Assembly: GCF_000715505.1 (NCBI RefSeq)
Contig: NZ_JHEH01000011.1
Span: 1 to 64,000, forward strand
From: Thioclava dalianensis
Lineage (GTDB): Bacteria; Pseudomonadota; Alphaproteobacteria; Rhodobacterales; Rhodobacteraceae
Length of the DNA: 64,000 nt
Direction: 5' to 3'
Position numbers and translations under genes: made by a program. The notes beneath the pieces were generated by a model. The model saw only the letters and a list, made by a program, of their open reading frames with translations, made no database searches and was not told the DNA's origin. Positions 42,602-50,456 of the stretch are shown in pieces; within the stretch, counting starts at the first letter, position 1, and every line of letters starts with the position of its first letter.

Positions 42602-44685
42602 GCGGCCACCATCCCGACCATCGCGGGGCGCGCGTCCAATCCGATCTCTTCAAAGCTGAGCACCGGGGCCGCGATCCCTTTCGCGCTGAGCACCGTGCGC
42701 AGAAACCGCCGCCGCCGTCCCGATGCGACCAGCGCTGGGAAGATCCCGCTTTGCCCGGCCACGGACAGCCGCTCGGCGATATTGCCCGCCAGCCGATTGA
42801 ACATCTCGGGCGGCAAGGCAACATCACCCGCCCCGCGCTCCCCGACCGTATAGGTGCCGAAGGTCTCCTCCCATTCGGGCGCCAGTTGAATGAGCGGGAT
42901 CGTTCCATCTTCGCGGCGCAGCTCTGCCACAAGCTGAAAGCCCAGCCGTTGCCGCACATGTTCGCAGATCGCCTCGGGCGTCGGCAGGCTGCGCACCTCC
43001 GCGATCGCTTCGATGATCAGCAAAAGGTTGCGGATCGACACCCGTTCCTCAAGCAGCAACCGCAACACTGCAAGAAGCAGATCGACCGGCACCTTGTCAG
43101 GGACGAGTTCCTCGAGCACGCGGCGATTGGCTTGGGCACGAGCGGGATCCGAAAGGTTGACCACCTCGTCGAGCAACCGCCGCAAGGCCCGCTGTGTCAT
43201 CAGACGCGCGAAATTCGCCTTGATCACCTCCAGCAGATGGGTGGCCAGAACTTCGGTCGGGCTGACAACGGTCGAGCCCGCCAGAGCCGCCTCTTCCTGC
43301 GTGTCCGCCGACACCCAGCGCGCGGGCGCCTGAAAGACCGGCTCGCGCACCTCGGGCCCTTCGGGCAGGATCTCGCGATTGTCGGCGATCAGCGCCAGAA
43401 CGCGCTCCGGGTAAAGCCGGTCTCGCGCCTGCTCGACGCCCTGAATGCGGATCCGGTAGCCGCCCGGCCCAAGCGTCGCATCGTCGGTCAGCCGGATCTC
43501 AGGGAGGATCAAGCCAAAATTCGTAGCCACATGGTTACGCATATTCGAAATCCGCGCATCCAGCCCGGTGGCCGGGTCCAGAGCCATCGCGACCAGATCC
43601 GGCGAGAACTCGACATGGATATCATCGACATCGAGCATATCGCCGAGCGACTTTTTCGGAGCGACTTTTTCTGGCGCGGGCATCTTCATCGCCTCGCGCC
43701 GCAGCCGCGCCCGCTCGTTCCGGGCCAACATATAGGCAGCCCCGCCCAAGATCGTAGCGCCCAGCATGAAGGGGACGAAGGGCAGCCCCGGCACCAAGCC
43801 AAAGAGCCCCATCAAGATGCCGACCGTCGCAAGGGCTGGAGGGTATTTGCCCAATTGACGGAACATCTCTAGATCGGTGGAGCCCTTCGCCCCGCCGCGC
43901 GACAGCAAAAGCGCTGAGGCAATCGAGATGATCACGGCCGGGATCTGGCTCACCAACCCATCGCCGACCGTCAGGATCGCATAGGTTTCCAGCGCGCGCC
44001 CAATCGGCATTCCGTGGACCGCCGTCCCGATGATCAGCCCCATCACGAGGTTGAGCATGGTGATCAGCAAGCCCGCCACAGCGTCGCCCTTGACGAATTT
44101 CGACGCGCCATCGAGCGAGCCGAAGAAGGTGGTCTCGGCCTGCTCGCGTTCGCGCCGCTCGCGCGCTTCGGCGTGATCGATCGCGCCCGCATTCATATCG
44201 CTGTCGATCGCGAGCTGCTTGCCTGGCATCGCATCAAGCGCAAAGCGTGCGCCGACTTCGGCCATCCGGCCCGCGCCCTTGGTGATCACGATAAAATTCA
44301 CGATCAGGATCACGCAGAACACGACAAGCCCGATCAGGACCGAGCCGCTCATGATGAAATTCGCGAAGCCTTCGATCACGTCCCCAGCGGCGCCTGTGCC
44401 AGTATGCCCCTCGCCAATGATCAGCTTGGTGGAGGTGACGTTGAGCGAGAGGCGCAGCATCAGCGAGCCAAGCAGGATCGTCGGGAAGGCCGAAAAATCC
44501 AGAGGGCGCTCGATGAACAGCGTAACCGTGAAAATTAGGATGGCGAGCGCGAAGGATGTCGCAAGGCCGACATCGAGAACCCATGCGGGCACGGGCAGGA
44601 TCATCATCACGATGATCGCCATCAGGGCCAGCGCAAGAAGGATCGTGGGCTGAAAGATCCGGCGCAGGGTCAAGCTCGGCGTCAT
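42598..44685 (-). CDS. flhA: Flagellar export protein FlhA
   Basis: FlhA forms the nonameric cytoplasmic ring that docks export substrates. The 695-residue protein has eight membrane helices in the first 330 residues, with the FHIPEP-type loop GDAMPGKQLAIDSDMNAGAI read here as LDAMPGKQLAIDSDMNAG (about 150) and the preceding FIVITKGAGRMAEVGARF. The large C-terminal cytoplasmic domain contains VIVNPTEVL-like SPTEVLATHLLEVIK (about 480). The ATG overlaps the sltF stop. Confidence 0.97.
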   Translation of the reverse strand: MTPSLTLRRIFQPTILLALALMAIIVMMILPVPAWVLDVGLATSFALAILIFTVTLFIERPLDFSAFPTILLGSLMLRLSLNVTSTKLIIGEGHTGTGAAGDVIEGFANFIMSGSVLIGLVVFCVILIVNFIVITKGAGRMAEVGARFALDAMPGKQLAIDSDMNAGAIDHAEARERREREQAETTFFGSLDGASKFVKGDAVAGLLITMLNLVMGLIIGTAVHGMPIGRALETYAILTVGDGLVSQIPAVIISIASALLLSRGGAKGSTDLEMFRQLGKYPPALATVGILMGLFGLVPGLPFVPFMLGATILGGAAYMLARNERARLRREAMKMPAPEKVAPKKSLGDMLDVDDIHVEFSPDLVAMALDPATGLDARISNMRNHVATNFGLILPEIRLTDDATLGPGGYRIRIQGVEQARDRLYPERVLALIADNREILPEGPEVREPVFQAPARWVSADTQEEAALAGSTVVSPTEVLATHLLEVIKANFARLMTQRALRRLLDEVVNLSDPARAQANRRVLEELVPDKVPVDLLLAVLRLLLEERVSIRNLLLIIEAIAEVRSLPTPEAICEHVRQRLGFQLVAELRREDGTIPLIQLAPEWEETFGTYTVGERGAGDVALPPEMFNRLAGNIAERLSVAGQSGIFPALVASGRRRRFLRTVLSAKGIAAPVLSFEEIGLDARPAMVGMVAA

Positions 44686-45482
44686 TTCTCTGCACGCCGT
44701 GCCAGAGCGGAGGCGAAAAGCGATGCGCCCGCGGCATGGCCAAGCCGTGGCGTCGCGCTCTCATCGCGGATCAGGAGAGGGTAGCTATTCGCACGGCGCG
44801 GCGGCACCACCGGGTTTTGCGCCGAGACGATATCGGGAATTTCAGGGATGTCCGAGAGATCCTGCGAGGAACGTGTGGGCGATATCGCCGCTGTGTCTTG
44901 GATCCGCGCTGGCCGCAGCTGCGCCATGTTCCTATCTTCCTCGATGAAGCCTTCACGCAGGCTGGCGAACCGTTTTGAATAGCGGTCGGCATGTATCTTG
45001 GTGCGCGAATGAAAGGCACCGGCGGCCTGCGTCCAATCGCCCAATTCTTCATATAGCTCGCGAAGGAAACGCGCGGCGTAGCGCCCGTTGGCAAGCGGAT
45101 CGAACATTTCCTCGATCGATGCGAACTGATCGCCATGCCATTTGAAATTGATCTGAAAGCAGCCGACATCGAAGCTCCGCGCGCCGCGCTTATATTCACG
45201 AAACACATAGCGCAGAGCCTCATCACGGGTGTCGAACCAATGCCCAGCCCCTTCCATATTCACCGTCCAGGGCCAGGGCCGAAAGGTGCCGTCGCGCTTG
45301 CGTCCGGTTTCCGTGAGCGAAATCGCTTTGAGCACAGAGATCGGCACTTTCGTCTCACCTGCGACCAGCTCGGCGGTGCGTTCACACATCGCGGCAGTGT
45401 CCAACGAGCGGGCATGCACGAGACGCATCGGCATGACCAACAGCGCGCCGATCAGACAAAACGCAAGACAGATCTGTTGCAT
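44682..45482 (-). CDS. sltF: Flagellum-associated lytic transglycosylase SltF
   Basis: A 266-residue periplasmic muramidase with a signal peptide (about 1-24, VHARS) and an SLT fold: the catalytic Glu lies in AISLTETGR (about residue 57) and the substrate cleft in DVGCFQINFKWHGDQF (about 104). The C-terminal 80 residues are low-complexity. Rhodobacter sphaeroides SltF, a dedicated flagellar transglycosylase, opens the peptidoglycan for the rod and binds FlgJ; position before flhA and domain form match it. A TTAA-bearing upstream element (45524-45542) suggests its own promoter. Confidence 0.85.
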   Translation of the reverse strand: MQQICLAFCLIGALLVMPMRLVHARSLDTAAMCERTAELVAGETKVPISVLKAISLTETGRKRDGTFRPWPWTVNMEGAGHWFDTRDEALRYVFREYKRGARSFDVGCFQINFKWHGDQFASIEEMFDPLANGRYAARFLRELYEELGDWTQAAGAFHSRTKIHADRYSKRFASLREGFIEEDRNMAQLRPARIQDTAAISPTRSSQDLSDIPEIPDIVSAQNPVVPPRRANSYPLLIRDESATPRLGHAAGASLFASALARRAEK

Positions 45483-45578: not shown

Positions 45579-47939
45579 CTATTGATTTGCCGCGATTTCA
45601 TTGCCCACCATTCCCTCGGAAGGTGCCGCCACCTGCGTCGGCCCCAGTGCATTGAGGACATCGGCCAGCAATTCCCGCTCCTTGCGACTCGCCGCGATCA
45701 AGCTTTCTGCGCGTTCCAGCGGACCTGCGGGCGGAGGCGCGGCCTCGGCTGTGTCTGCGTCTGCAGCAAACGTCGCGACAAAGGCCTTTTCCGGTGCACT
45801 GCCATGTTGTTTCACGTATTCCCAATTGCCATCGCGCCAGGCTTCTCGCGTGGCACGTTCGGCCTCTCCCGCATTCGCGAAATAGTTTAGCGCGGCGGCG
45901 TGATCCCCGATCCGCGACATCGCCGAGGCCCGCATAGCCGTCACTTCAGCCCCTTCAAGCCCCTCAAGATAGGTCAGAGCGGCGGCGGCATCGTTCTCCT
46001 GCAAAGCGACTTGCGCCAACAAAAAGCGATCCGTGTCGTTCAAAGCCTCCGCCCTCGTCAGAAGGGTTTTGGCTGATGCAGCAAATCCCAAAGCCGTCAA
46101 ACGCTCCGCAAGCGTCGCGCGCACCTCCGGATCTGCGCCTGCAGCAATCGCGGCCTCGCGATGCGCAAAAAAGGCACGCGTGAATCCGTCATCCTCGGGG
46201 AGTTTGCCAAGAAGCATCGTGATCTCCGACAGTGTCTGCGCACGCAAATCTTCTTCGGCATCCGCAGGCCAATCCGCAAGCAAACCATATCCCTCATCAA
46301 ACGCGCCAATTGATGCATGGCCGAGAGCCGCCGCGCGCAGCAAGCGGCGCCCGATCGGCGTGCCTTGCAATTCGAAAGCAAGCGAGCGGGCATTCTGCAT
46401 TGTGGCCTCATCGATCGGCTGGCCTGCAGCGAGCCGCGCATCCACGAGAAGGAGGAGTGCTTGCGCGGCATGCGGACCGTCCTCGGCCACGACAGAGCGC
46501 AGCGCGGGTTCCGCATCGGGCGCGCCCTCATCAAGCTCGATCTGCGCGTCGACCATCTCAAGCGCGGCCTTGTCATCTTGCGAAACGCGCGACAGGGCCG
46601 GACGCAGCGCATAGGCCACATCCGACGCCCCCATCGCGATCAGGCGCGCGACAAGATCGGGGCCGACCGTGTGGCGCAGCTCCGGCGAGAGCGCGAAATA
46701 GGCCCGCTGAACAGCTGCGAAATTCACCTGATCTTTCTCCGGCAGAGGGTCTGCGCCAAGCACCGCCCAAAGCGCCACATCCCCGTCGCAACTTGTCATC
46801 TGAGCGAAGCGCGCGGTGCGGCTCTCTGGCCGTTCATCGAGAATGTCGGACAGGTAGAACAGCGAGTCGCGCGCGGGATCCTCGGTGGCCAGCTCGCGCA
46901 ACAACGCCCGCGCCTCGGCGCCGAAACCGAACGCAAGAAAAGTGCGGGCGAGCTGGAGAACCTGCACCTGATCCGGCCTGTCAAACTCCCCAAGCAAGGC
47001 GCGGCGTCCGTCACCGATCTGAGTGCTCACATCGCTCTCCCCGCGCCAGGAGCCGACAGCGAAGAGCGCATCAGGGGCGCAGCGCAGACCCGTCTTCGTG
47101 GTTTGTGACCCGGCATTGCGAAGATGCTCTGCCTGATCCACCGATGTTTCGGATTTGAACGCGATATGATCTCGCGGCAGATGGGATGTTTCGGTGGGCT
47201 CAGCGACTAGCGCCTGAACCTCCTTGCCCGGATCCCGGTCGGGCCGAGTTGGCAATTCCGGCAGTTCAAGCTCAATCAAGCCCTGCGAGGCTGCGCGCCC
47301 CAACTGCTTGATCAGATTGGACTGGACCGCGGCCACCCGCGAATCGGTCTGCGCGATCTCCGGCAGGGCAAGCGGCGCATCTTGAGGGGGTGCAATCGGG
47401 TCATTTGCGGGGCTTGGATCTGGCGCGGACCGCTCGGCCCAGTAAAGATCTAGATGCTGCTCACCGATCTTGACCGGCTGTCGGGTGACGCGTTCGGTTG
47501 GCGCCTCGCTTGCAGCGGCGGATGGGACCGGTGAGGCCGCAGTTCGAGCGGACCGTTCAAGCGCGGCCGGGCGCGGCTGGGGGCGAATCTGGTCGCTGTA
47601 GAAATCGACGACCACCCCGCCACCGGCAAGAGCGAAGGCGGAATATCTCACCCCCTTGGCCGTTCGAATGAGTACCGTCCCCGGATCAACCCCGGTTTCC
47701 AGATCGAGCACCCGATCGCGCGGGATTCGTCGGAAGACATCCTGCATCTGAAACTGCGGATCGGGCGCATCCGTCGCAAGGCGAAAACCCCGATTGGTTT
47801 CTTCGATCTCCCACTGCGCATTGGGCGGCACCATAAAGACAAGCCGCGTGAGGGCCTCATGCTCTCCCGAAAGCACGTTGATCCGCGCCGCCTGAGCGGG
47901 CGCGGCAAGCAAGCACAGCAAAACGAGTGCCCGCAGCAT
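45579..47939 (-). CDS. Large periplasmic protein of the motor locus, MotC-like candidate
   Basis: A 786-residue protein that I do not recognise as a named family. It has a signal peptide (ending PAQAA), an N-terminal beta-rich domain of about 110 residues (INVLSGEHEALTRLVF to VVVDFYSD), a Pro/Ala/Ser-rich linker to about 200, and a long alpha-solenoid, TPR-like, to about 740 (ALTYLEGLEGAEVTAMRASA is one repeat-like unit). It starts in the motA stop (TGATG; GGAGG 7 bases before ATG 47939) and motE is nearby. In Sinorhizobium MotE is the chaperone of the periplasmic motility protein MotC, so a MotC-like role in stator function is inferred. Confidence 0.7.
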   Translation of the reverse strand: MLRALVLLCLLAAPAQAARINVLSGEHEALTRLVFMVPPNAQWEIEETNRGFRLATDAPDPQFQMQDVFRRIPRDRVLDLETGVDPGTVLIRTAKGVRYSAFALAGGGVVVDFYSDQIRPQPRPAALERSARTAASPVPSAAASEAPTERVTRQPVKIGEQHLDLYWAERSAPDPSPANDPIAPPQDAPLALPEIAQTDSRVAAVQSNLIKQLGRAASQGLIELELPELPTRPDRDPGKEVQALVAEPTETSHLPRDHIAFKSETSVDQAEHLRNAGSQTTKTGLRCAPDALFAVGSWRGESDVSTQIGDGRRALLGEFDRPDQVQVLQLARTFLAFGFGAEARALLRELATEDPARDSLFYLSDILDERPESRTARFAQMTSCDGDVALWAVLGADPLPEKDQVNFAAVQRAYFALSPELRHTVGPDLVARLIAMGASDVAYALRPALSRVSQDDKAALEMVDAQIELDEGAPDAEPALRSVVAEDGPHAAQALLLLVDARLAAGQPIDEATMQNARSLAFELQGTPIGRRLLRAAALGHASIGAFDEGYGLLADWPADAEEDLRAQTLSEITMLLGKLPEDDGFTRAFFAHREAAIAAGADPEVRATLAERLTALGFAASAKTLLTRAEALNDTDRFLLAQVALQENDAAAALTYLEGLEGAEVTAMRASAMSRIGDHAAALNYFANAGEAERATREAWRDGNWEYVKQHGSAPEKAFVATFAADADTAEAAPPPAGPLERAESLIAASRKERELLADVLNALGPTQVAAPSEGMVGNEIAANQ

Positions 47940-48808
47940 CATGCCGCCTCCGTCTTCACGCTTTTGAGCGCCTCTTCGAGTTCAGAGAAGCTCGGGCGAA
48001 TGTGATGCGGGGTGTTCTGCCGCCCCACCTCGATGCAGATATTTGTCGCGTGATTATGCAGATTGGCGACAAGCACTTCACGGATCAGCTTGTAGAAATG
48101 GCTGTCCTCGTCGATCACCGATTTCATACGGGCGGCAAAGGGGGCGATGAACCCGTAGGCGAGAAACACGCCAAGGAATGTCCCCACCAAGGCACCACCG
48201 ATCATTTTCCCCAGAATTTCTGGGGGTTGATCAATTGAGGCCATCGTCTTGATCACACCCAGAACCGCCGCGACGATGCCAAGTGCGGGCATTGCGTCGG
48301 CCACGGATTGCATCGCATGCGACGAGTGCATCGCGTGGTGATAATTCGCCTCGAGCTGCTTATCGAGCACTTCTTCGACCTGCATCGGATCATCGTAATT
48401 CATCGATGCGGAGCGCATCGTGTCGCAGACGATTTCAATCGCCTCGTGATCGTGGAGGATCCTGGGATACTTGCCGAAAATCGACGAGCTTTCAGGCGCT
48501 TCGATATGTTCTTCGATCGCGACCGGGTTCTGCCGCGCCAGTCGGATCAGCTCAAAGAGCAGACATAGCAAATCGCGATAATCGCCGGGCTTCCATTTCG
48601 GCCCCTTGAAGACCTTTCCGATATCCTTGAGCGTATGTTTAATCGCGGCCATGTCGTTGGACAGCACGAAGGCTCCGACCGCCGCACCGCCGATCATGAT
48701 CATTTCAAACGGAAGGGATTTAAGGATAATCCCCATCTTTCCACCCGCAGCAACGTAGCCTCCAAAGACCATCGCGAAGATGATGACGATACCGATGATG
48801 CCGACCAT
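47939..48808 (-). CDS. motA: Flagellar motor stator protein MotA
   Basis: MotA is the stator subunit that pushes on FliG using ion flow through MotA-MotB. The 289-residue protein has four membrane segments, the cytoplasmic loop with the charged rotor-facing helix, and the conserved end stretches MPALGIVAAVLGVIKTMASID and GTFLGVFLAYGFIAPFAARMK (blocks). GGAG with 8 bases to ATG 48808 sets the start against a frame from 48835. motB is not in the window, which is unusual. A TTAA lies in the 62-base gap before it. Confidence 0.95.
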   Translation of the reverse strand: MVGIIGIVIIFAMVFGGYVAAGGKMGIILKSLPFEMIMIGGAAVGAFVLSNDMAAIKHTLKDIGKVFKGPKWKPGDYRDLLCLLFELIRLARQNPVAIEEHIEAPESSSIFGKYPRILHDHEAIEIVCDTMRSASMNYDDPMQVEEVLDKQLEANYHHAMHSSHAMQSVADAMPALGIVAAVLGVIKTMASIDQPPEILGKMIGGALVGTFLGVFLAYGFIAPFAARMKSVIDEDSHFYKLIREVLVANLHNHATNICIEVGRQNTPHHIRPSFSELEEALKSVKTEAA

Positions 48809-48870
48809 GAAACTATCTCCAAATCCGAGCTGCACTCTCGCAGAAGAGGCTTAAGAAAGGCCTGATCGCT

Positions 48871-49500
48871 TCATTCTTTCGGGGCGCCGGCATTGCGACC
48901 GGCCATCAAAACACTGATCGTATAGGCAGATTTGGGATCGAGGCTTGAAAGCACCGCCGCCGCCGCCTCGGGACGCATCCGCCCCAAAAAGCCTGCCGCA
49001 AATTCCGGGGACATCTCTTCGAAAAGCGGGGCGGCCTGTTTTGGCTTCATGTTCTCGTAAAGCGTCACGAGGCGCGCGACGTCCTTCTCGGCGGCCTGAT
49101 CCGCGATCGTGACGGTCTGCGACAAAGCCTCTTCGGCGGCGCGCAGTTCCGCAAGCCGCGCCTCAAGTCGGGTCTGGGCAATCGACATGGCCTGTTCACG
49201 ATCCAGCAAAGAGCCCTCGCGGTCGGCCAGGGTCTCCTCGCGGCTTTGCAGCTCCGCATGAAGCGCCATCAGCCCGGGCTCAGTCACACATTCGCCCGCC
49301 GTTTGCTCCGCCGCGTCCGCGCTTTCGGTCTGGCGGGCAATCGCACTGCCCCCCGCTTCCACAAGGCGCAGCACCCCGGAGCTTACAAACAGACCCGCGA
49401 TGATCCAAAGGAGGCCCCGCCCGAGGCGGCGGCGAAGGCCCCGGGCCTTCTTTTGACCCGAACGCTTGGTATCGGTTGTGGCGCGTGCAGCCGTCTTCAT
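48871..49500 (-). CDS. motE: MotE-like flagellar protein with MgtE-N-type domain
   Basis: A 209-residue protein with a basic N terminus, one membrane segment (about 28-45), a coiled coil (ELQSREETLADREGSLLDRE and on) and a C-terminal MgtE intracellular-N-like domain with YENMKPKQAAPLFEEMSPEF and FLGRMRPEAAAAVLSSLD. This is the layout of MotE of Sinorhizobium, reported as a periplasmic chaperone of MotC. It is ATGA-coupled to the DUF6468 gene and lies before motA and the large periplasmic gene, which supports a shared function. The name rests on layout, so it is tentative. Confidence 0.78.
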   Translation of the reverse strand: MKTAARATTDTKRSGQKKARGLRRRLGRGLLWIIAGLFVSSGVLRLVEAGGSAIARQTESADAAEQTAGECVTEPGLMALHAELQSREETLADREGSLLDREQAMSIAQTRLEARLAELRAAEEALSQTVTIADQAAEKDVARLVTLYENMKPKQAAPLFEEMSPEFAAGFLGRMRPEAAAAVLSSLDPKSAYTISVLMAGRNAGAPKE

Positions 49501-49892
49501 TCTGCCGCCTCCAGATCGATATCGCGCAGGCGTCGGCGCAGCACGCGACGACGCGGCTCAGGCTCAGGCGTCACCTCTGGCGTCGCGACGGGGGCCGGTT
49601 CAGGCTCCGAGGGCAGGTCATGCAAAGAGGCAAGCAGGATTTCGAGTTTTTCCGCCCCCGCCTCCGCACGTTCGGTAAGCGCGCGCAGCTCGGTTTCCGA
49701 ATGGGCCGCCGTTGCCTGCGCTTTTTGCAGGGCCCGCGTCATGTCATCGACCTGCGCCGAGAGCACGGCAATCGCACCCCCCATCCCGCTTTCAAGCTGA
49801 TTGAACTGCTTGAGACGCCGGGCCAAGACAAAGCAATAGCCTGCCGCCACCAATGCCGCGAGGGCGAGAATGATATCCGAGATAAGCTGCAT
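49497..49892 (-). CDS. DUF6468-family flagellar-cluster protein
   Basis: A 131-residue protein with one N-terminal membrane helix (MQLISDIILALAALVAAGYC), then a coiled coil (about 30-90, VLSAQVDDMTRALQKAQATA) and a Pro/Glu-rich tail ending in a run of Arg. It fits what I know of DUF6468, found in alphaproteobacterial flagellar clusters next to fliL and motE. GGGAG 7 bases before ATG 49892 decides the start. Function is unknown; the membrane helix and location suggest a structural role by the stator. Confidence 0.7.
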   Translation of the reverse strand: MQLISDIILALAALVAAGYCFVLARRLKQFNQLESGMGGAIAVLSAQVDDMTRALQKAQATAAHSETELRALTERAEAGAEKLEILLASLHDLPSEPEPAPVATPEVTPEPEPRRRVLRRRLRDIDLEAAE

Positions 49893-49903
49893 TTTCGTCT
49901 CCC

Positions 49904-50410
49904 TCAATTCAGCACGAATTCGATGACCAGAAGATCGCGCACCCGGCCCTCGCCGGTCACGATCTGCACCCGTCGCAGCATCTGCGCGCGCAGGCGCATC
50001 AGGGCAGACGAATCTTCCAGCATGGCGGTATCGACCGCGCGCAGATAGCCGTTCAGCACGTCCATCACCCGTGGCTTGAGCATCTCGACATCGGATTGAT
50101 AGGCGACCGGAACCTCAAGCTGGGCGACGAATCGCAGATGGCGCGCGCCGTTTCCGGCCAGATTGATTGTCATCGGATCGAGCGCCACGAAGGCAATTTC
50201 CGGCAAGGCTGAAGGCGCGGCCTCTGGCGTGTGCTCTTCGGCATCCGCCGCGCCCTCTGGCACAGGCGGGGCAAGAATCATCCCCGAATAGACTGCGAAG
50301 AAACCGCCGCCACCAAGCAGCAGCATAAGCACCACCCCGATCAACAGCGGAAGCTTGGACTTTTTCTTCGGCGCTGCATCGGCAGCACCGGTCATATCAA
50401 TGTCAGCCAT
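49904..50410 (-). CDS. fliL: Flagellar basal body-associated protein FliL
   Basis: A 168-residue FliL. It has a short cytoplasmic Lys-rich start, a membrane helix (LPLLIGVVLMLLLGGGGFF), a Pro/Glu linker and the periplasmic SPFH-like domain with FVALDPMTINLAGNGARHLRFVAQLEVP and the C-terminal VRDLLVIEFVLN. FliL encircles and stabilises the stator. The ATG at 50410 is preferred (GGTGAG upstream); an earlier ATG at 50443 in frame is possible. It is divergent from fliF across a gap that holds a CtrA-like site. Confidence 0.9.
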   Translation of the reverse strand: MADIDMTGAADAAPKKKSKLPLLIGVVLMLLLGGGGFFAVYSGMILAPPVPEGAADAEEHTPEAAPSALPEIAFVALDPMTINLAGNGARHLRFVAQLEVPVAYQSDVEMLKPRVMDVLNGYLRAVDTAMLEDSSALMRLRAQMLRRVQIVTGEGRVRDLLVIEFVLN

Positions 50411-50456
50411 GGTCTCACCGATTTCTTCGATGCAAGCAGTCATAACCCGAAACCGA

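Follow-up and report, generated by a model that had tools for sequence, protein, structure and literature searches.

The best-described relative of the gene studied here is motK (RSWS8N_12065) of the Fla2 flagellar system of Cereibacter sphaeroides, reported by Velez-Gonzalez et al. in 2024 (PMC10954123). It closes the gene order fliL-pflI-motE-motA-motK, and its product begins with a signal peptide and an AMIN-like N-terminus and also contains disordered regions and a TPR part. MotK and MotE are both periplasmic in C. sphaeroides, and mutants lacking either protein build flagella that do not rotate (PMC10954123). MotE binds MotK and MotB2, while MotK binds MotB2 more weakly. MotK forms polar foci only if MotA2 and MotB2 are present, and loss of MotE weakens them; fusions of MotK and of MotE form foci along with the hook (PMC10954123). 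Proteins similar to MotK were found in Paracoccaceae and Roseobacteraceae, and no BLAST similarity to MotK was reported for the Caulobacteraceae proteins (PMC10954123). Further afield, PflA of C. jejuni combines an AMIN-like β-sandwich, a linker that wraps the protein PflB, and 16-17 TPRs. A Caulobacter study reports that hyperadhesion in a flgH mutant is suppressed when CC_2058 (fssB) is lost, and places this gene in a stator-dependent pathway.

Here we analyzed a stretch of 64,000 nucleotides from a Thioclava genome (the window). An open reading frame at 45579..47942 on the minus strand encodes a 787-residue AMIN-linker-TPR protein with a Sec-type signal peptide. Its ATG start (47942-47940) overlaps the TGA stop of motA (47941-47939), which bears out the initial annotation in placing the start at the motA stop codon; the reading frame given there was confirmed as well, but its length of 786 residues counted from the second of two adjacent methionines. 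The protein matched the 652-residue MotK of one genome in our set, G094, with a BLASTP E value of 3e-47 and 31% identity over 628 columns. This alignment spans residues 2-624 of 787, most of the length of the protein, and includes two cysteines that are discussed below. We took G094 to be C. sphaeroides because its COX1 matches PDB 1m56_A (100% identity over 566 residues) and its MotK, counted from an ATG inside the called open reading frame, and its MotE have the published lengths; 1m56 is an R. sphaeroides structure. The G094 locus contains fliL, pflI, motE (185 aa), motA, motK, a gene for an SLT transglycosylase and flhA, and the window shares the order from fliL to motK along with the touching stop and start codons. 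As the BLASTP match to the C. sphaeroides protein settles membership, the gene is an ortholog of MotK. The initial reading of the locus was thus sound, but its description of the protein as uncharacterized was wrong at the family level, the family having been published in 2024 (PMC10954123). Taken as a whole, the best explanation is very probably that this gene is the motK of a Fla2-type flagellum and that its product serves, with MotE, as a scaffold for stators.

The genes upstream of motK lie on the same strand, in agreement with the earlier proposal that it shares an operon with a motE-like gene. fliL (49904..50443, minus strand; model match) is followed by a pflI-like gene (49497..49907, minus strand), whose DUF6468 match (E 2.4e-5) is below the Pfam cut-off and whose product matches the protein at the C. 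sphaeroides pflI position at E 4.3e-39. Next is motE (48871..49500, minus strand), a member of the MotE/FlgY/FlbB family (named COG3334 in the literature), with an MgtE_N match at E 3.9e-7 (31 bits against a cut-off of 25.9). As in that family, its product is predicted to have a long helix followed by an MgtE_N/FliG-like end. The match to the FlbB collar model (E 7.7e-7) fell below the model cut-off, and the best Foldseek rows for the predicted MotE structure were FliF-YlxF, FliG and MgtE, all with E values of 5.7e-3 or worse. By eye, the window MotE shows an arginine-rich N-terminus along with a hydrophobic helix, which may stay as a membrane anchor instead of being cleaved. We also observed that, as called, the motE open reading frames of our named loci (the best 80 of 293) encode exactly one cysteine in 46 of 76 cases and none in 22 of 76. 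motA itself (47939..48835, minus strand) scores 369 bits against a cut-off of 303.8 for TIGR03818 and starts here with GTG; many relatives begin at an internal ATG (289 aa) and not at the position of this GTG. The Thioclava genome holds four PF01618 matches, with the window motA among them, one MotB match on another contig, and one motE match. Downstream, motK is adjoined by the SLT lytic transglycosylase gene (44682..45482, minus strand), which is not a fixed part of the locus.

The architecture of MotK was assessed with an AlphaFold2 model (mean pLDDT 84.4) that contains each of the three parts seen in the initial annotation: a β domain, a disordered linker and a helical solenoid. The protein was also described there as secreted, which agrees with the signal peptide MMLRALVLLCLLAAPAQA at residues 1-18 (47889..47942, minus strand), read by eye and not by a predictor. 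The AMIN-like domain (residues 19-117; 47592..47888, minus strand) is assigned from the predicted fold, which in a structure comparison resembles the AMIN domain of AmiC, described as peptidoglycan-binding (PMC10954123); the Pfam AMIN family (PF11741) gave no match to the window protein at E 0.1. The low-confidence linker covers about residues 118-264 (47151..47591, minus strand), with pLDDT under 50 at residues 120-123, 125-195, 240-247 and 251-255. It is followed by a helical TPR-type solenoid (about residues 265-770; 45633..47150, minus strand). This TPR assignment rests on the predicted fold, since the sequence match to TPR motifs is non-significant (Pfam TPR_16 at E 0.027 only). Searches with the window protein found 0 matches among solved-structure sequences at E 1 and no catalytic family at E 0.1; nor did the model, an AMIN-like domain plus a solenoid, reveal the unrelated enzyme with an intact active site that had been named earlier as a possible outcome, and we rejected an enzymatic assignment.

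Conservation was examined in an alignment of 78 proteins (A2), comprising the window protein and those of 77 of the best 80 of 293 loci; contig ends truncate L060 and L065, and the motif filter used to set the start removed L052. This filter is partly responsible for G26, H28 and R33 being invariant, but not for the invariance of Cys288 (47079..47081, minus strand) and Cys385 (46788..46790, minus strand). These two cysteines occur in 78 of the 78 proteins and, judging from this pattern, could possibly form a disulfide pair in the Thioclava protein. A CxC pair in the AMIN domain, found in 57 of the 78, is absent from the window protein. Within the linker, model and alignment together define a conserved helix (residues 201-223; 47274..47342, minus strand; consensus LLxQLxRAASQGL), modeled as helical at residues 201-219, with L210 conserved in 75/78, A217 in 73/78 and G221 in 76/78. 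Searched against PDB sequences, the A2 profile returned TPR proteins (coatomer epsilon, designed TPRs) together with chance rows, the best at E 0.0038.

Of the 149 genomes of the order, 107 gave a MotK match by single-sequence search and 111 by profile search, which makes the observation more than a matter of chance. A close motE (E under 1e-40) is present in 113 of the 149. Both genes occur in 111 genomes, motE without a MotK match in 2 and neither in 36, and MotK without a close motE in 0 of 149, so that the co-occurrence with motE that the initial annotation had offered as a check is observed. The two genes lie within 3 kb of each other in 104 of the 111 genomes and apart in 7. Among the named loci (the best 80 of 293), the searches recovered motA in 78, motE in 76, pflI and fliL in 74 each, fliF in 72, flhA in 67 and, by single-sequence search, the SLT gene in 47; where motA, motE, pflI or fliL was not found, the contig ends there. 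The start of motK touches the motA stop in 76 of 77 cases from this same set of loci. The SLT gene was rejected as a fixed partner, being matched in only 47 of these best 80 loci and unmatched in 20 of the 67 in which flhA was found.

Several further observations concern individual genomes and replicons. Of the two genomes with a close motE but no MotK match, G110 (L129:5211-7313) encodes, next to motE and motA, a divergent MotK-like protein of 701 residues without a matched AMIN segment; in the other, G140, a short contig contains motE and neither motA nor motK. At eight loci (L120, L121, L123, L125-L128 and L131) a separate flagellar cluster encodes a divergent second MotE (E about 1e-15 to 1e-22), located after fliL and a gene that is fliM-like by eye; no MotK match was found in the stretch examined. 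Both MotE clusters are present in some genomes, including a Thioclava (G100). Viral contigs gave no MotK match. Plasmid records gave one, on the 137-kb plasmid pD4M1D of Paroceanicella profunda (L172:5290-7941), which carries a block running from fliL to motA and motK. Its motK-like gene is annotated as a hypothetical protein, and our analysis supplies a name for a gene that is still sometimes annotated in this way (e.g. WP_138578638.1 of Paroceanicella).

Of the 36 genomes with neither gene, 13 have a weaker motE match only: six of one genus (g7) and seven others, all of which except G070 were inspected. In the six g7 genomes with a motE match (L122, L124, L132, L133, L134 and L135), motE and motA are kept and MotK is unmatched, which indicates that MotE does not need MotK everywhere. 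The gene order in this genus is fliL, pflI (where called), motE, motA, a gene for a secreted protein of ~90 residues, and flhA, with fliF divergent. The ~90-residue protein occurs in 6 of the 6 g7 genomes with motE and in 0 of the other genomes of the 149-genome set, and it had no Pfam match in any of the six. We tried and rejected the idea that it is a remnant of MotK (hhalign 0.1%). At one g7 locus a transposase-like gene lies between motA and the small gene, and in L122 the start of the small gene is uncertain. For G006, COX1 matches a 206-residue segment of 1ar1_A at 93% identity, against 88% for the window genome, a hint that this genus is Paracoccus or close to it.

Outside the family, the A2 profile matched an open frame at E 1e-5 or better in 30 of the 36 motE loci inspected (L136-L171), which were chosen from 103 motE-positive genomes. 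These frames encode 433-1420 residues, some being cut by the end of the locus, and 29 of the 30 contain one or two AMIN segments, many carrying two. The motif RxGxHxxFxRLVFDWP occurs in a loose form in 19 of the 30, and a regular expression for the linker-helix pattern matched 0 of the 30. At 12 of the 30 loci, a MotB-like gene lies no more than 300 nt from the MotK-like one, as judged from one insensitive single-sequence query. In a Pfam search of six proteins, a sub-threshold AMIN match was found in two (L157 and L170) and AMIN-like matches in four (L141, L157, L166 and L170). Six loci (L137, L152, L153, L155, L161 and L167) had no protein at E 1e-5; in L153, L155, L161 and L167 a protein of 977-1190 residues is located near motE. 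As controls, none of 72 shuffled or reversed sequences was matched at E 10, and among 35 other large proteins of these loci the three that matched are the MotK-like proteins of their own loci. With this profile, MotK can be connected to large AMIN-TPR proteins encoded next to motE in genomes outside the family. Together with the g7 genomes, these results suggest a tentative and, in our judgment, somewhat doubtful scenario in which MotK would be the alphaproteobacterial form of an old spoke protein that pairs with a MotE E-ring, and its linker helix would dock MotE, MotB or the next MotK. One genus, probably Paracoccus or a close relative, would then have dropped the spoke while keeping MotE and MotA, with the ~90-residue protein, which is unrelated to it, as a stand-in, providing a natural minimal motor scaffold.

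The initial annotation proposed that the protein is a periplasmic scaffold of the stator. This accords with the ortholog being tied to the stator in C. sphaeroides (PMC10954123), and from orthology we infer the same function in Thioclava. MotK would be exported to the periplasm, where its AMIN domain probably holds peptidoglycan; MotE and the periplasmic portion of MotB are the probable binding partners of its TPR solenoid. MotE probably forms an E-ring around the MS-ring, and the two proteins would together constitute a wall-anchored scaffold, with MotK in a presumed spoke-like position, that recruits, holds or opens MotA/MotB stators. Cells without MotK would build flagella that do not turn. 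A listing of literature on TM1040 flagellar mutants contained nothing on the motK gene. It could also be argued that MotK only opens or tunes the plug of MotB and makes no structural spoke or ring, as isolated Fla2 basal bodies were without extra proteins and the C. sphaeroides authors leave both roles open (PMC10954123). We consider this unlikely, given the foci seen with the hook for fusions of MotK and of MotE in that species (PMC10954123) and the agreement in domain order between MotK and PflA spokes.

A less probable alternative is that MotK is a chaperone client of MotE, a functional twin of rhizobial MotC that is protected from degradation by MotE and acts on MotB. MotE is encoded in the same operon, the S. 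meliloti MotE protects MotC (PMC10954123), and a 2026 review describes both MotC and MotK as mainly TPR and proposes their remote homology from structure. The C. sphaeroides data point the other way, as loss of MotK severely reduces MotE, whereas MotK can still be detected in the absence of MotE (PMC10954123). The window protein is also not a MotC by any of our sequence tests, contrary to the counterpart relationship suggested initially. Using as reference the gene after motB in the annotated S. meliloti pSymB record, whose product scored 708 bits against the NCBIfam MotC model as a positive control, we obtained a best BLASTP E value of 1.7, and neither NF009442 nor its sister models were among the matches to the window protein at E 0.1. 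Comparison of the MotK family with a three-sequence MotC alignment by hhalign gave a probability of 1.4%, and the MotC model found no match in the 149 genomes of the order, though it found none in the control genomes either. Remote homology may still be compatible with these tests, as the MotC alignment holds three sequences. The earlier term "MotE client" is apt insofar as a large periplasmic partner goes with MotE here, but in its chaperone sense it is unsupported by the C. sphaeroides data. Finally, that MotK is an AMIN-TPR protein remodeling the cell wall with the neighboring SLT transglycosylase and not a motor component is highly improbable, for despite the SLT gene after motK and the AmiC-like domain, that gene is inconstant, motA and motE occur at every locus whose contig extends far enough, no genome of the 149-genome survey had MotK in the absence of a close motE, and ortholog mutants make flagella (PMC10954123).

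Compared with known systems, Thioclava MotK resembles S. meliloti MotC as a periplasmic partner of MotE and motility protein, and differs from it in that MotC has 433-434 residues in the copy examined, has no AMIN match and is encoded downstream of motB. Caulobacter crescentus CC_2058 is likewise a secreted TPR protein adjoining a MotE-family gene, with an AMIN-like N-terminus in a published model; it is reported to have no BLAST similarity to MotK (PMC10954123). The likeness to PflA foreseen in the initial annotation is one of form. As in descriptions of PflA, a β-sandwich, a linker and a TPR superhelix follow each other in that order, the lengths are similar and PflA too is the partner of a MotE-family protein, FlgY. 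The top PDB match in Foldseek was a Campylobacter scaffold chain, 9hmf_K (E 9.8e-5 over 890 columns, TM 0.15), which judging from its length of 773 is probably PflA. With TM-scores of 0.15 this likeness consists in shared domain order and not in superposition; no PflA chain was among the profile matches to PDB sequences at E 10, and PflA was absent among the 50 VIA-align matches listed. The structural comparison suggested at the outset thus upheld a PflA-like arrangement of domains but no superposable fold. C. sphaeroides MotK remains the closest system: the Thioclava protein is 135 residues longer and 31% identical, but has the same operon order, motA overlap, signal peptide, AMIN-linker-TPR architecture and both cysteines. 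This comparison places the gene in a published stator scaffold that is required for rotation in C. sphaeroides, to which our analysis adds small but testable pieces: a profile that reaches beyond the family, two invariant cysteines, a helix conserved within the linker, and a genus with the scaffold protein replaced.
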